A stretch of DNA of 64,000 nt from Streptococcus himalayensis (GTDB lineage: Bacteria; Bacillota; Bacilli; Lactobacillales; Streptococcaceae). Each line of letters starts with the position of its first letter. The stretch's first letter is position 1. The notes beneath the pieces are model-generated. The model saw nothing but the letters and a program-made list of their open reading frames with translations, had not been told where the DNA came from and made no database searches. Below, in pieces: positions 9,037 to 58,705 of the stretch. The stretch lies in contig NZ_CP016953.1 of NCBI RefSeq assembly GCF_001708305.1, positions 949,501 to 1,013,500 of the forward strand, read 5' to 3'. The position numbers and the translations under genes were made by a program.

Positions 9037-9573
9037 CTATTTCGCTGCTCCTAAGTAGTAAAAGAGATTGAAACACCACTGTAGGTTGATAGGAGGTTTG
9101 GGTGATTCTTCTAAAATAGGAATAAGGACTCGTTTTAATAGTTTGTGAACTTCTTTTTCTAGTTGCTTCATTTCATAAGTTGAAATATTTTGTGTAAGTT
9201 GTTCTTCGTTACTCGGATAATATACAGTTAGTTTGCCATTTAACAACAAAAAATAGTTATTATCATATTTATCCCTAATATTTAATCCAAAACCCTGACC
9301 GTACTTGTCGTCTTCGGTAGAAATTGTAATCGAGGTAGATGTATCTTCTAATTTGTTAATGCTTGGTTTTCCATGGGTTACGAATCTATACGAAATATCT
9401 GGTTCTGGGACATCATAGAGGTGTTCTAGAACTATTTTAGCTACTACAGAGTAATTATCATCTGTAGCCGCTTTTGAGATATAATAAAGTGTATAAGTGT
9501 TGATATTGACAATCATATAGATGAAGGATAGGATAGAAAAGATAATTGAGAGAGTTAGTATTCTTTTTTTCAT
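9037..9573 (-). CDS. Unrecognised membrane-anchored protein (partner of cationic repeat protein)
   Basis: 178 aa with one N-terminal hydrophobic segment (about 5-25) preceded by KKR, then a soluble, mostly beta-looking domain rich in Asp, Tyr and Asn (VPEPDISYRF, STEDDKYGQGFGLNIRDKYDNNY) and a charged C-terminal helix. This predicts a protein anchored in the membrane with most of the chain outside. No family recognised. The ATG shares one base with the upstream stop (TAATG), with GGAAAACG ahead, so translation is coupled to the cationic protein. The last 20 residues (WCFNLFYYLG) are hydrophobic. Confidence 0.7.
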   Translation of the reverse strand: MKKRILTLSIIFSILSFIYMIVNINTYTLYYISKAATDDNYSVVAKIVLEHLYDVPEPDISYRFVTHGKPSINKLEDTSTSITISTEDDKYGQGFGLNIRDKYDNNYFLLLNGKLTVYYPSNEEQLTQNISTYEMKQLEKEVHKLLKRVLIPILEESPKPPINLQWCFNLFYYLGAAK

Positions 9574-14550: not shown

Positions 14551-14636
14551 GCGGGGATGGCGGAATTGGCAGACGCGCAGGACTAAGGATCCTGTGACCG
14601 CTTTAGGTCGTGAGGGTTCAAGTCCCTCTCTCCGCA
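14551..14636 (+). tRNA. tRNA-Leu (anticodon AAG)
   Basis: 86 bases with the long variable arm of class II tRNAs. The acceptor stem pairs GCGGGGA with TCTCCGC (one G-U), discriminator A14636; CCA is not encoded. The anticodon stem CAGGA/TCCTG encloses CTAAGGA, giving anticodon AAG, for CUU codons. The T arm is GAGGGTTCAAGTCCCTC. It has its own promoter and terminator, so it is a single-gene unit. Confidence 0.93.
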
Positions 14637-14642
14637 CTAATG

Positions 14643-27806: not shown

Positions 27807-29221
27807 GGCTCTTTGTCAACTGTAGTGGGTAGATGAAAAGCTAACACCTAGAGAGGACCAAATTGGTCTTCTCTCGTTTTATGTTTAAAGCAATGAAAAT
27901 CCGCTTTTTAAAGTTTTCAAAGTTTCGAAAGCCAAAGGCATTGCGTTTGATGACTTTGATGAGATTATTCGTCGCCTCAAGTTTGGCATTTGAGTAAGGC
28001 AATTCCATGGCGTTGAGAATCTTATCCTTGTCCTTCAAAAAGGTATTAAATACGGTCTGGAAAATCGGGTCGACAGTCTGCCGAGTGTCTTGGATAAGTC
28101 CAAAAAACTGGTCAGCTTGCTTCTCCTGGAAGTGAAAAAGCAGTAGTTGATAGAGCTCGTAGTGTTCTCTCAGTTCTTGAGAATAGCCGAGCAGTTTAGC
28201 GACAATCTCCTTATTGGTCAAATGCATCCGAAAGGTCGGGCGGTAAAACCGCTTGTCACTGAGTTTTCGACTGTCCTGTTGTATCAATTTCCAGTAGCGT
28301 TTGAGCGTCTTGTATTCATGCGATTTGCGGTCAAAAGCATTCATGATTTGGGTACGGACACGGTTCATAGCACGGCTGAGATGTTGCACAACGTGGAAAC
28401 GATCAAGCACGATTTTAGCATGAGGAAAAAGTTGTTTGGCTAGTTGATAGTAAGGGCTAAACATGTCCATAGTGATGAATTTAACGCGGTTTCTGACCTG
28501 TCTAGGGTATCTCAGAAAGTGATTTCGGATGGTTGCTTGCGTTCTTCCATCAAGGATAGCGATGACATTTAGGGAGTTGAAATCTTGAGCGATAAAGCTC
28601 ATTTTCCCTTTCTTGAAGGCATACTCATCCCAAGACATGACTTCTGGAAGCTTAGACCACTCCGTTTCAAACTTAAACTCGTTGAGTTTTCGAATAACTG
28701 TAGATGTAGAAATGGAAAGTCTGTGTGCGATATGTGTCATTGCTTGCTTTTCGATGAGTAATTGTGCGATTTTCTGGTTGACAGCGACAGAGATTTGATG
28801 GTTTTTCTTAACAATAGGAGTTTCAGCGACCGCTATTTTCCCACATTCCTTGCATTTGAAACGACGCTTTCGAAGGCGGATAAGTAGCGGGTAGCCAGCA
28901 GTTTCTAAGTAGGGGATTTTAGAGGCTTTCTGGAAGTCGTACTTAGCCATTTGTCCCTTGCAGGAAGGGCATTTAGGGGCTGTGTAATCCAAGTGACCGT
29001 GGAGTTCTAAGTGTGTTCCCATGTCGCATTCATTAGTGATCGTGATATTTTTGTCTTTCATTTTGAGAAAATTTGTGATAAGATTTAGTTGTTCCATATG
29101 AGTCTTTCTAAATGATATTTTTGTCGCTTTTCATTATAGGTCATATGGGACTTTTTTTCTACACTGAAAAAGGCTCCATAATCTCCACAGTGGATTTACC
29201 CACTACAGATATTATAGAGCC
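27807..29221 (-). mobile_element. ISL3-family insertion sequence, intact, 1415 bp
   Basis: Terminal inverted repeats are GGCTCT, then CTGTAGTGGGTAGAT (left, from 27807) and, read inward from 29221, GGCTCT, then CTGTAGTGGGTAAAT. Both ends are flanked by a perfect 8-bp direct repeat ATTTTTCA (27799-27806 and 29222-29229), the duplication size of ISL3 elements. The single transposase gene is intact. This indicates a fairly recent insertion between the purine permease and tsaE. The right end also has a second inverted copy of the terminal repeat (29171-29221 palindrome). Confidence 0.95.
27841..29097 (-). CDS. ISL3-family transposase (IS1167/IS1193-like)
   Basis: 418 aa. An N-terminal zinc finger (CPSCKGQ, CKECGK) is followed by a helix-turn-helix (MTHIAHRLSISTSTVIRKL) and a DDE catalytic domain with MSWDEYAFKKG, ITMDMFSPY and, near the C-terminus, LEATNNLIKVIKRNAFGFRN. 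The length is normal and no stop interrupts it, so it should be active. It lies inside well-conserved inverted repeats on the strand opposite to the neighbouring housekeeping genes. Confidence 0.95.
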   Translation of the reverse strand: MEQLNLITNFLKMKDKNITITNECDMGTHLELHGHLDYTAPKCPSCKGQMAKYDFQKASKIPYLETAGYPLLIRLRKRRFKCKECGKIAVAETPIVKKNHQISVAVNQKIAQLLIEKQAMTHIAHRLSISTSTVIRKLNEFKFETEWSKLPEVMSWDEYAFKKGKMSFIAQDFNSLNVIAILDGRTQATIRNHFLRYPRQVRNRVKFITMDMFSPYYQLAKQLFPHAKIVLDRFHVVQHLSRAMNRVRTQIMNAFDRKSHEYKTLKRYWKLIQQDSRKLSDKRFYRPTFRMHLTNKEIVAKLLGYSQELREHYELYQLLLFHFQEKQADQFFGLIQDTRQTVDPIFQTVFNTFLKDKDKILNAMELPYSNAKLEATNNLIKVIKRNAFGFRNFENFKKRIFIALNIKREKTNLVLSRC

Positions 29222-38078: not shown

Positions 38079-40862
38079 TTGTCTAAAAAAAGATTGTACG
38101 AAATCGCGAAAGAACTGGGAAAAGAGAGCAAGGAAATTGTTGCTCGTGCAAAGGAATTGGGTTTTGCGGTTAAAAGTCATGCGAGCAGCGTAGAGCAAGA
38201 GGCGGCTGATAAGATTGCGGCCACTTTCAAGCAAGCAGCTCCTGTGAAAACGGAAAAACTGAAAGAGAAGGCTACAAAGCCTGTTGCTGAGAAAAAAGCA
38301 GAGCCGGCTGTACAAGTGAAGGCAGAAGAAAAAGTAGCTCCTGTTAAAGAGGAAGTCAAAAAAGTCAATCGCCCTCAAAGTCGGAATTTTAAGGCTGAAC
38401 GAGAAGCGAGAGCTAAAGAGCAAGCTGAGCGTCGTAAGAAGCAGCAAGAAAATCGCAAGCAAGCACCAAAAGGAAACCAACGTCCTAAACAAGATAAGCC
38501 TTCACAGGGGCAGAAATTCCAAGGGCAAGAGGGTCGTGACCGCAAAGACAACCGTGGTCGTAAGGACAATCGGGATAACCGTGATAACCGCCGTGATTTT
38601 CAAAATGGAAAGCCAAAAGCTTACAATCAGGATGAACGTAAATCTGCACCGGCTCCAAAACCACGGATTGATTTTAAAGCCCGTGCGGCAGCCCTAAAAG
38701 CAGAACAATTGCAAGAGTATGCTCGAACCAGTGAAGAGCGCTTTAAGCAGGCACAGGAAGCAAAAGCAGCTCAGGAAGCTAGGAAAAAAGAGAAGTTGGA
38801 AGATATTTTTGTAGAATTACCAACAACTGAGGATCCTATTACTCCTGTTGCACCAGTAGTACCAAGCCCTGCCCCTGCAGAAAATCGTCGGAAAAAACAA
38901 GCTCGACCAGAAAAACGACGTGATGATTTTGATCACGAAGAAGAAGGTCCACGAAAACAACAGAAGAATCGAAACAGTCAGAATCAAGTGAGAAATCAAA
39001 AGAATAGTAACTGGAATACTAATAAGAAAAACAAAAAAGGTAAAAATAACCGCACGAGCAATCAAGCACCAAAACCAGTCACAGAACGCAAGTTCCATGA
39101 ATTGCCAAGCGAGTTTGAATATACGGCAGGCATGACCGTGGCAGAGATTGCGAAACGGATCAAACGTGAACCAGCAGAAATTGTGAAGAAACTCTTTATG
39201 ATGGGTGTCATGGCTACGCAAAACCAATCCTTGGACGGAGAGACTATTGAGCTCTTGATGGTGGATTATGGAATTGATGCCAAAGAAAAAGTCCAAGTGG
39301 ATGTGGCCGATATTGAACGCTTCTTTGTGGATGAAGATTATATCAATCCAGAAGCGATGACAGAGCGTCCACCAGTTGTGACGATTATGGGGCACGTTGA
39401 CCACGGAAAAACAACTCTCTTAGACACGCTTCGCAATTCACGTGTGGCAACAGGTGAAGCTGGAGGGATTACTCAGCACATCGGTGCCTACCAAATCGAA
39501 GAAAATGGCAAGAAAATCACTTTCCTAGATACCCCAGGACACGCAGCCTTTACAAGCATGCGTGCGCGTGGAGCGTCTGTAACAGATATTACGATCTTGG
39601 TCGTTGCTGCAGATGACGGTGTCATGCCACAGACGATTGAGGCGATTAACCACTCAAAAGCAGCTAACGTTCCTATTATCGTAGCGATTAACAAGATTGA
39701 TAAGCCAGGGGCAAATCCTGAGCGTGTCATTGGTGAGCTGGCTGAGCATGGCGTTATGTCCACGGCTTGGGGTGGAGATTCCGAATTTGTCGAAATCTCA
39801 GCTAAATTTAACCAAAATATTGATGAACTTCTTGAAACCGTTCTGTTGGTAGCCGAAATCCAAGAATTAAAAGCAGACCCAACGGTTCGTGCCATCGGAA
39901 CTGTTATCGAGGCACGTTTGGATAAAGGAAAAGGAGCCGTTGCGACCCTCCTTGTTCAACAAGGAAGCTTGAATGTTCAGGACCCAATCGTTGTCGGAAA
40001 TACCTTTGGGCGCGTCCGTGCCATGACCAACGACCTTGGTCGCCGTGTGAAAGTTGCTGGACCATCAACCCCTGTTTCCATTACTGGTTTGAATGAAACA
40101 CCGATGGCAGGAGATCATTTTGCCGTCTATGAAGATGAAAAAGCAGCGCGTGCCGCAGGGGAAGAGCGTGCAAAACGAGCCTTGATGAAACAACGTCAAG
40201 CGACTCATCGTGTCAGTCTTGAAAATCTCTTTGATACTCTGAAAGCTGGAGAAGTCAAATCTGTCAATGTCATTATCAAGGCGGATGTGCAAGGTTCAGT
40301 CGAAGCCCTAGCTGCCTCTCTTCAAAAGATTGAAGTGGAAGGGGTGAAGGTTACTATCGTTCACTCGGCAGTTGGTGCGATTAACGAGTCAGACGTGACG
40401 CTTGCAGAAGCTTCAAATGCCGTTATCATCGGATTTAACGTGCGTCCTACACCGCAAGCTCGTCAGCAAGCGGACACAGATGAAGTCGAAATTCGCCTTC
40501 ACAGCATCATCTACAAAGTCATCGAAGAAGTAGAAGATGCCATGAAGGGGATGCTGGATCCTGAGTACCAAGAAAAAATTATCGGTGAAGCACTCGTTCG
40601 TGAGACTTTCAAAGTTTCAAAAGTGGGCACAATCGGTGGATTTATGGTCATCAACGGAAAGGTTACCCGCGACTCCAGCGTACGTGTCATTCGTGATGGT
40701 GTCGTTGTCTTTGATGGTAAACTTGCGAGCTTGAAACACTTCAAAGATGATGTCAAAGAAATTACCAATGGTCGTGAAGGTGGACTGATGGTTGAAAACT
40801 ATAACGACCTCAAAGTGGACGATGTCATTGAAGCCTATATCATGGAAGAGATTAAAAAATAA
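38079..40862 (+). CDS. infB: Translation initiation factor IF-2
   Basis: 927 aa. It delivers initiator tRNA to the 30S subunit and promotes subunit joining. The N-terminal region (1-345) is a charged, lineage-variable linker ([18 protein letters not shown]); the GTPase begins with GHVDHGKT (438-445), followed by DTPGHAAF and NKIDK; domains C1 and C2 follow. The start is TTG at 38079 with GAGGAG 8 bases upstream. It is the last gene of the operon before the hairpin array. Confidence 0.96.
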
Positions 40863-40975
40863 GATACAAAGTCCGTAAAGTGCCAAGCAAAATTAGGAGT
40901 TCTATCGCCGGAGCGTCTGCTCCTAGGTTGAACTCTCTATTTTGCATAGCACTTAGGGCGTGTTCAGTTAGTTAA
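40863..40975 (+). repeat. Long hairpin unit 1 (infB-rbfA array)
   Basis: 113 bases folding into a nested stem-loop: GTCC with GGGC; AAGTGC (40878-40883) with GCACTT (40949-40954); GCAAAAT (40887-40893) with ATTTTGC (40939-40945); GAGTTC (40897-40902) with GAACTC (40930-40935); apical GGAGC/GCTCC. It begins GATACAAAG, directly after the infB stop, and ends GGGCGTGTTCAGTTAGTTAA. Confidence 0.8.
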
Positions 40976-41088
40976 GATACAAAGCCCGTAAAACACCAAG
41001 TGAAAATAGCAAATCTGACGTAGAGCCTGTAGGCTCTAGGAAGATTTGTCTTTTTCTCACAGTGTTTAGGGCGTGTTCAGTTAACTAA
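40976..41088 (+). repeat. Long hairpin unit 2 (infB-rbfA array)
   Basis: 113 bases, same frame sequence as unit 1 at both ends (GATACAAAG...GTAAA and GGGCGTGTTCAGTTAACTAA) but different arms: GCCC with GGGC; AAACAC (40991-40996) with GTGTTT (41062-41067); GTGAAAA with TTTTCTCAC (bulged); AAATCT with AGATTT; apical TAGAGCC/GGCTCTA around TGTA. Pairing is kept while sequence differs from unit 1. Confidence 0.82.
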
Positions 41089-41286
41089 GTAATGAGAGCG
41101 TTCGAAAAGTCCTAATGAAAATAGGAGATTTGTGAAGTGTTCGATGAACGCAAACAAATCTATCCCTAAAGGGAGCCAAAGCTGTAGTCTGCTAAAGCAG
41201 TCACAGTATTGTCTCTTTTTCATAGTGACTTTTAGCTCGAAAACAATTCTGCTTCACACAGCAATTAAGACATATCCAGTTAGGAA
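41089..41286 (+). repeat. Long hairpin unit 3 (infB-rbfA array, enlarged)
   Basis: A larger, more diverged unit: GAGC with GCTC; AAAAGTC (41105-41111) with GACTTTT (41227-41233); ATGAAAA (41115-41121) with TTTTCAT (41217-41223); AGATTTGT (41126-41133) with ACAAATCT (41154-41161); plus smaller internal hairpins such as CCCTAAAGGG and the CTGCTAAAGCAG stem. It ends with CATATCCAGTTAGG, a weakened form of the units 1-2 tail. Confidence 0.75.
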
Positions 41287-41324: not shown

Positions 41325-41348
41325 AGCCAGCTTTGCTGGCTGATTTTC
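41325..41348 (+). terminator. Terminator-like hairpin before rbfA
   Basis: AGCCAGC (41325-41331), loop TTT, GCTGGCT (41335-41341), then GATTTTCT. The T tract is short. It would reduce read-through from the infB operon into rbfA. Confidence 0.55.
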
Positions 41349-41392: not shown

Positions 41393-41740
41393 ATGGCAAA
41401 TCATTTTCGTACAGACCGTGTTGGCATGGAAATCAAGCGTGAAGTCAATGAGATTTTGCAAAAGAAGGTCCGTGATCCAAGAGTGCAAGGCGTGACAATT
41501 ACCGATGTTCAAATGTTGGGCGATTTGTCTATGGCGAAGGTTTACTATACCATTATGAGTGACCTAGCTTCAGACAATCAAAAAGCTCAGACAGGACTTG
41601 AAAAAGCGACAGGCACCATCAAACGTGAGCTCGGTCGCAATCTCAAAATGTACAAAATCCCAGATTTAACCTTTGAAAAAGACCAATCGATTGAATATGG
41701 GAATAAAATCGATCAGATGTTGCGAAATTTGGAAAAATAA
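41393..41740 (+). CDS. rbfA: 30S ribosome-binding factor RbfA
   Basis: 115 aa. A KH-like cold-shock ribosome assembly factor that acts late in 30S maturation. The N-terminus [19 protein letters not shown] and the [20 protein letters not shown] segment match the family. RBS AAGGAGGAAG. It is separated from infB by 530 bases of hairpin array instead of the usual short gap, and a TTGAAA box at 41351 may give it a separate promoter. Confidence 0.94.
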
Positions 41741-58575: not shown

Positions 58576-58607
58576 AACGAGATGCCAAAACAGCTATAAG
58601 CAACTAG

Positions 58608-58657
58608 AAAGAGAGAACAATCGATTTCAGAGAAATCAGGAGTATTCTCTCTTTTTT
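58608..58657 (+). terminator. nadE terminator
   Basis: AAAGAGAGAA (58608-58617) with TTCTCTCTTT (58645-58654), enclosing an ATTTC/GAAAT hairpin, and a T run. Confidence 0.82.
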
Positions 58658-58677
58658 CTTACTCTTTTAGTCCGTAC

Positions 58678-58705
58678 TTGAAGATTTTCGAAAAAGGTCT
58701 ATAAT
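58678..58705 (+). promoter_or_regulatory. pepC promoter
   Basis: -35 TTGAAG (58678-58683), 16-bp spacer, -10 TATAAT (58700-58705). RBS AAAGGAG follows before the ATG at 58732. Confidence 0.65.

Follow-up and report, generated by a model that had tools for sequence, protein, structure and literature searches.

The window analysed here, a stretch of 64,000 nt from Streptococcus himalayensis, contains an array of three consecutive hairpin units in the spacer between infB and rbfA. In the list of features below, R1 denotes the covariance model described further on, and the coordinates of the linkers follow from its matches.

38079..40862, + strand: infB (translation initiation factor IF-2); open reading frame, NCBIfam TIGR00487, E 3.9e-246
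40861..40969, + strand: unit 1, dispersed-repeat hairpin, A1C1-like; R1 102.3 bits, E 3.3e-20; fold z -5.50
40970..40973, + strand: linker of 4 nt between units 1 and 2
40974..41082, + strand: unit 2, dispersed-repeat hairpin, A1C1-like; R1 112.0 bits, E 2e-22; fold z -6.20
41083..41086, + strand: linker of 4 nt between units 2 and 3
41087..41248, + strand: unit 3, repeat with inserted module, A1B1C1-like; R1 50.4 bits, E 3e-8
41162..41215, + strand: inserted module of unit 3 (CCCTAAAGGGAGCC ... GTCTCT), read by eye, extent approximate
41325..41341, + strand: terminator-like stem-loop from a terminator search, outside the repeat, between the array and rbfA
41393..41740, + strand: rbfA; open reading frame, NCBIfam TIGR00082, E 6.8e-31
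58579..58683, + strand: further copy, weak and probably decayed, behind a stop codon and close ahead of a gene start; R1 27.2 bits, E 0.0063

The TAA stop codon of infB (40860-40862) overlaps the 5' edge of unit 1, and the three hairpin units that the earlier note had placed behind it are present at 40861-41248. Units 1 and 2 are 109 nt long and unit 3, with its module, 162 nt. A direct-repeat search gives units 1 and 2 a pitch of 113 bases, the first starting at the stop codon, in agreement with the shared text previously described. The arms differ between the units and yet pair, since AAGTGC/GCACTT, AAACAC/GTGTTT and AAAAGTC/GACTTTT are all found. The second helix, which had likewise been said to covary, requires a qualification for unit 2, where it is imperfect, with a mismatch beside an isolated pair. 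Similarly, the interval 40863..41286 previously assigned to the array does include the matched units, while its last ~37 bases lie outside the R1 match. The inserted module of unit 3 recurs at 113.8k, 148.6k, 758.6k and 2193.3k of the same genome (blastn).

None of 200 dinucleotide shuffles folds as well as unit 1 (z -5.50) or unit 2 (z -6.20), unit 3 (41089-41285) likewise exceeds its shuffles (z -3.92), and the whole infB-rbfA spacer folds better than 100 of 100 (z -8.49). The spacing of the units recurs elsewhere: in the loci examined, neighbouring units are separated by exactly 4 nt in 22 of 51 cases and by 0-17 nt in the others. Downstream of the array, terminator-like sites number 4 against a mean of 0.6 in shuffles, and a stem-loop occupies the equivalent place before rbfA in other species as well. 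The Shine-Dalgarno (SD) sequence of rbfA is intact just upstream of the gene; consequently, the array leaves this ribosome-binding site unsplit. A decayed coding element was also considered, and no + strand open reading frame of at least 60 aa occurs in the infB-rbfA spacer. Elsewhere in the window, a tRNA-Leu (aag) lies at 14551-14637 (+) and a match to Rfam Srn266 (Streptococcus RNA 266) at 29111-29221 (+); the latter, also seen at 9301-9411 (-) of another locus in the window's genome (L022), could likewise represent a repeat.

Searching the window's genome by BLAST with the array returned diverged copies at other loci. The covariance model R1 was built from an alignment of 13 units, 11 from the window's genome and 2 from relatives; units 1 and 2 are among them and unit 3 stands outside the model. 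In this alignment 90.4% of cells pair, compared with 72.2% in shuffles and 29.5-54.1% in slid controls, and both sides have changed in 21 of 28 pairs. The covariation described in the earlier note exceeds chance: all five measures of pairing and covariation on the 13 units surpass 500 of 500 shuffles, none of which reaches any single one, and 6 of 6 slid controls. The proposed search for further copies in this genome and in other streptococci with such a model was equally productive. The absence of other copies and of covariation had been named as grounds for abandoning the structural reading; copies were found, and covariation lies above every control.

The distribution of the repeat is wide. 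R1 has 27 matches at E<=1 in the window's genome. With 19 candidates scored in each Streptococcus genome, it reaches E<=0.001 in 192 of 197. All 14 genomes reached via named loci carry it, with 8-34 matches each at E<=0.01; they include S. pneumoniae, four S. suis, two S. sanguinis, S. parasanguinis, S. gordonii, S. mitis and S. timonensis, and the S. suis genomes (G206-G209) have 25, 31, 34 and 22 matches, respectively. In the wider order, R1 is found in 11 of 11 Streptococcus and, weakly (best E 1.2e-9), in 12 of 69 other genomes; ten loci in four non-Streptococcus genomes contain units of like design, some of them in tandem. In one set of loci from other Lactobacillales (L414-L429), similar hairpin arrays bear the stem motif AATAGGA / TTATCT, and several of them, as read by eye, directly precede an SD and start codon in antisense orientation. 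The same motif is conserved inside the aligned R1 copies. No Rfam family matches the window's units, or the copies in 16 further loci, at its gathering score, the best score in the infB-rbfA spacer being at chance level (E 0.062), and blastn of a plasmid collection with the array gave no match. The array thus consists of three tandem copies of a dispersed, BOX-like streptococcal hairpin repeat of ~110 nt, longer where it carries the module, which is not specific to this operon. The largest array in the window's genome (G000:C1:2258091-2258962) comprises at least seven consecutive R1 matches and lies antisense to and upstream of a gene whose own SD stands between the array and the ATG.

The copies are polar with respect to gene edges. 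The 234 arrays of the fetched loci were collapsed by upstream flank into 97 sites, a non-random set composed of best-scoring matches and chosen places in which 3 rows are opposite-strand echoes; gene edges were taken from open frames, not from annotations, and both ends of the element were counted by like rules. A gene boundary lies within 25 nt of the 5' end (AAGATAC) at 60 of the 97 sites and within the same distance of the 3' end (TTCAATT) at 6 (p 3e-12). The boundaries are of two main types: antisense starts are found at the AAGATAC end in 35 cases, against 1 sense start at the other end, and sense stops in 29, against 5 antisense stops. The repeat therefore sits in sense orientation just after a stop codon or antisense just before a start codon.

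An unusual placement emerges from the 35 sites that have an antisense ATG no more than 25 nt away. In 10 the SD is directly adjacent to the element's far end and in 14 it is 3-60 nt beyond it, so that the element separates SD from AUG in 24 of 35; in 10 the SD stands between element and AUG, and in 1 it was not found. In the window's genome the split cases are dnaK, dnaJ, rsmA/ksgA and, as we presume from its N-terminus, carB. Read along the gene strand, the close form is GAAAGG-[AATTGAAC ... GGTATCTT]-N0-6-ATG. The strict SD-element-ATG pattern occurs in 124 of 284 genomes, whereas the reversed-pattern control gives 0. The sense-orientation pattern, for which no ATG was required, has 3 matches in 2 of the 284 genomes, each of which starts inside a frame that is open for 383-500 codons upstream; within the sequences searched, the element between SD and start codon is accordingly always antisense.

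In the fetched loci, the close split form comprises 107 distinct sequences in 20 gene families, including dnaJ (43 sequences), dnaK, parC and proS. Ten of the split genes are confirmed by NCBIfam, namely DnaJ (in the S. pneumoniae genome), DnaK, ParC, ProS, PrfA, RsmA, PurE, PurD, Alr and GlyS, and residue 1 of DnaK, ProS and PurD aligns to position 1 of the respective profile; the remaining names are presumptive, taken from the N-termini. The gap from TATCTT to ATG is 2 nt in 48 of the 107 sequences, 4 nt in 30 and 5 nt in 19. The linear SD-AUG distance amounts to 101-126 nt (median 111), and no other purine SD-like word was found within 15 nt of the AUG in any of the 107.

When SD and AUG are held unpaired, all 107 sequences fold as one stem, leaving a median of 8 outer unpaired nucleotides. 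Values of 6-12 are obtained for 80% of the real sequences and for 37% of single mononucleotide shuffles (shuffle median 12), a control of moderate strength, because shuffled leaders often end with a short outer loop too. At the 14 sites with a more distant SD, the fold distances of real and shuffled sequences overlap. In these far-SD sites (L022 3438-3718, L218, L222, L136, L215 and others) an extra small hairpin is located in between, complementary to the element end, and the folds suggest a three-way junction that again closes near SD and AUG. Of 30 split sites folded without constraint, 23 have the SD partly paired to the element end (AAGG to UCUU), an arrangement that would hide the SD instead of presenting it.

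The gene dnaJ offers a comparison among orthologs. Ordinary-SD dnaJ starts are found in 30 of 284 genomes, with 7-9 nt from the last GG to the ATG in 24 of the 30, and 2-4 of these starts resemble remnants of the element. Among 38 distinct dnaJ leaders carrying it, 94.2% of cells pair, compared with 91.1% in shuffles; both sides have changed in 7 of 36 pairs, a value that 0 of 500 shuffles reach, and the count of further pair types is reached by 1 of 500.

Taken together, these results favour, with a probability of roughly 0.7 judged from sequence, a BOX-like mobile hairpin whose polarity at gene edges reflects the joining of its flanks upon folding. The repeat would spread as a non-autonomous mobile element. 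Once transcribed, it would fold into a single hairpin whose two ends meet, bringing the flanking sequences together in space, and copies may survive at gene edges because the two ends of the folded element lie side by side. Between SD and AUG, the hairpin would preserve a usable spacing by reducing ~111 nt to ~8 and would thus bridge a ribosome-binding site that is split. Copies that follow a stop codon, such as those at infB, would simply be tolerated, perhaps protecting the 3' end of the upstream message. Since rbfA retains its own SD, any effect on mRNA stability in the infB-rbfA spacer is expected to be no more than mild, and the window's three copies are probably tolerated there and not a dedicated operon device. 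The more specific proposition that the hairpin has invaded, in antisense orientation, the SD-AUG gap of many Streptococcus housekeeping genes, and that their translation depends on its folding, is given even odds.

A different view, held to be possible but somewhat improbable, is that the repeat is purely selfish DNA, whose covariation would serve the needs of spreading, either through recognition of the hairpin or cruciform by a transposase or through arm-to-arm correction of a palindrome, with a role as RNA nowhere, infB included. The strand symmetry of the pairing speaks for it. Across 238 unit-length sequences and four inner helices, 4982 cells divide into 4725 Watson-Crick, 55 G-U, 56 A-C and 146 other combinations, and a first sample over all pairs gave 66 G-U against 61 A-C. 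Selection on one RNA strand should favour G-U, and this equality indicates that most copies are not maintained for pairing in the RNA of one strand. As a control, the 13 tRNAs with 25 G-U and 0 A-C are weak, since ARAGORN annotates just those pairs that it accepts. By site class, G-U/A-C counts are 14/8 after stop codons, 3/6 at antisense starts and 13/17 elsewhere, none of them significant. Hence, while the pairing and the covariation described in the earlier note are real, its step from paired changes to selection on RNA is insecure for the family as a whole; covariation within a repeat family is by itself no evidence of RNA selection. The two strands are not equivalent in the loops, from which the + strand fold gains higher stability than the - strand fold in 200 of 238 units, an asymmetry that counts against an exclusively selfish origin. 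From the even G-U and A-C counts together with this strand difference, we read the family as one whose hairpin is required in the spreading lineage, with RNA constraint at only some of its sites.

At gene starts the balance shifts. A count of gene-strand G-U against A-C derived from RNAalifold (129 vs 22) was discarded as biased, since columns in which G-U is permitted are preferred by that folding. In its place, gene families with at least three sequences were folded on each strand with G-U disallowed. This yields 68 double Watson-Crick states; the single-step states are 41 G-U against 23 A-C (p=0.033), and with the structure taken from the other strand 39 G-U against 23 A-C (p=0.056). Counted as cells, the figures are 44/28 (p=0.076) and 41/28 (p=0.148), depending on the strand used. 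The G-U excess at split sites thus points modestly to selection on the mRNA strand. Selfish DNA leaves three observations unexplained: the position of SD and AUG at the two feet of the hairpin in many different genes, the lack of sense-oriented copies in that position, and the compensatory changes among orthologous dnaJ leaders.

Evidence on mobility bears on selfish DNA and on the favoured reading of a mobile hairpin that joins its flanks. Copies are arranged in tandem, and the infB-rbfA spacer and dnaJ each exist with and without the element at orthologous sites, which speaks for selfish DNA. No convincing target-site duplication was detected for lengths of 2-9 nt at 78 distinct single sites; the best excess is 2 nt and falls inside the element, and a 2-nt TA duplication may nevertheless exist. 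An IS200/IS605-type mobiliser found no support in the window's genome, as R1 has no match in either of its two Y1 transposase loci, to which this search was confined. These negative results count against the mobility that the favoured reading proposes.

A third reading assigns a regulatory role to the hairpin, which would act beside the SD as a switch, through UCUU pairing, RNase III cleavage or temperature, to tune the translation of housekeeping genes, whereas copies after stop codons would tune mRNA decay. The partial pairing of the SD in the unconstrained folds speaks for such a switch, as do the conserved motif AATAGGA / TTATCT and the modest mRNA-strand G-U excess at gene starts. We consider it unlikely nonetheless: the same gene has the element in some species and lacks it in others, the split genes share no evident pathway, and the sequence suggests no condition or ligand.

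The infB-rbfA spacer itself was compared across species. A related unit lies directly behind infB, on the same strand, in 14 of 80 named loci, in the S. sanguinis and S. cristatus group. With scores of 28-53 bits, these copies have decayed further than the units of the window; R1 has no match in the majority of the 80 spacers. In S. parasanguinis, S. australis and relatives the spacer measures 75-78 bases, with no room for the element. Since spacers with and without it exist, the site has gained or lost the element. The inner pairs of the sanguinis-type copies are 83% Watson-Crick, with 27 G-U, 10 A-C and 11 other of 287 cells, counts drawn from related sequences in an alignment fitted to R1; the G-U excess is a hint that the infB mRNA strand is under some constraint. 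The earlier note's suggestion of a processing or attenuation module dedicated to infB-rbfA could draw on these 14 like-oriented units and their G-U excess, and it is nevertheless very improbable, given that the same element is dispersed over dozens of unrelated loci per member of the genus, that most spacers lack a match and that those of S. parasanguinis and its relatives work without one.

Other repeats occupy the same spot. In one infB-rbfA spacer of another species (L115, genome G006), a different long hairpin repeat, which R1 does not match and which we take to resemble the pneumococcal BOX, lies right behind infB. In five further spacers from the S. cristatus group and S. sinensis (L027, L031, L033, L060 and L108), another repeat (GAGAGTGGGACAGAAATCG ...) is inserted behind the R1-like unit. 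The position behind infB may consequently attract or tolerate repeats.

Should the preferred reading of a bridging mobile hairpin be correct, a structured insert of ~110 nt between SD and AUG would be tolerated in essential genes since it folds away, and the repeat would spread by virtue of that tolerance, which would extend the rules by which bacterial start sites are recognised. Current annotation of streptococcal starts and leaders would then miss the split sites. On the more specific proposition that translation depends on the folding, the expression of chaperone, tRNA synthetase, topoisomerase and purine genes at the level of translation could be linked to hairpin stability or cleavage. 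The dnaJ genes with and without the element would provide natural pairs of species for measuring the effect of structure between SD and AUG on translation.

A precedent for such bridging exists in phage T4, where structure between SD and AUG shortens the distance from 22 to 5 nt in gene 38 and from 27 to 11 nt in gene 25, and where its destabilisation reduces initiation, according to a review (PMC3014915). In both systems RNA structure would bring SD and AUG to a functional distance. The T4 cases are short single hairpins in two phage genes, in contrast to a dispersed repeat of ~110 nt in at least 20 chromosomal gene families; bridging is demonstrated for the former and proposed for the latter. 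A search of the open-access literature returned no report of a dispersed repeat bridging SD and AUG.

Dispersed palindromic repeats at gene edges are also familiar from REP/BIME, ERIC and Correia elements. These can affect mRNA decay or processing, as quoted in PMC3049150. They differ from the R1 repeat in sequence and in host, and for R1 no link to a Y1 transposase emerged from the two loci of the window's genome. The EFAR repeats of Enterococcus faecalis were also sought as a relative, and no mention of them was found in the open-access literature.

Closer relatives are the short, folded, intergenic and dispersed repeats of the pneumococcus, BOX, RUP and SPRITE, of which BOX is modular and RUP ~107 bp long (passages of PMC3049150). 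The S. pneumoniae D39V annotation gives 127 BOX and 106 RUP (PMC6212727). R1 has 15 matches in the S. pneumoniae genome searched (150 candidates scored), and it is thus not simply either of them. For RUP, identity is rejected on copy number (15 vs 106).

The closest counterpart is the BOX-type repeat of S. suis, with strong secondary structure and dispersed occurrence, in which boxA and boxC of ~50 nt each may enclose an optional boxB; its A1C1 form (~100 nt) is equated with the older RepSU1 (Croucher et al. 2011, PMC3049150, passages available). In the open-access literature, RepSU1 was found in this paper alone. The window's units show the same composition of two ~50-nt modules (~100 nt) with an optional inner module, units 1 and 2 fitting A1C1 and unit 3 A1B1C1 in a comparison by the description given in those passages, and R1 is dispersed in four S. 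suis genomes, as RepSU1 should be. The passages contain no mention of a site between SD and start codon, and they name S. suis as the sole species with BOX-type repeats other than S. pneumoniae and S. mitis (PMC3049150). The presence of R1 in 192 of 197 Streptococcus genomes exceeds that range and would correct the view of BOX-type repeats as limited to these three species. The hairpin behind infB therefore belongs to a known kind, the BOX-like repeats; their range proves wider than previously described, and a placement between SD and start codon is new for them.
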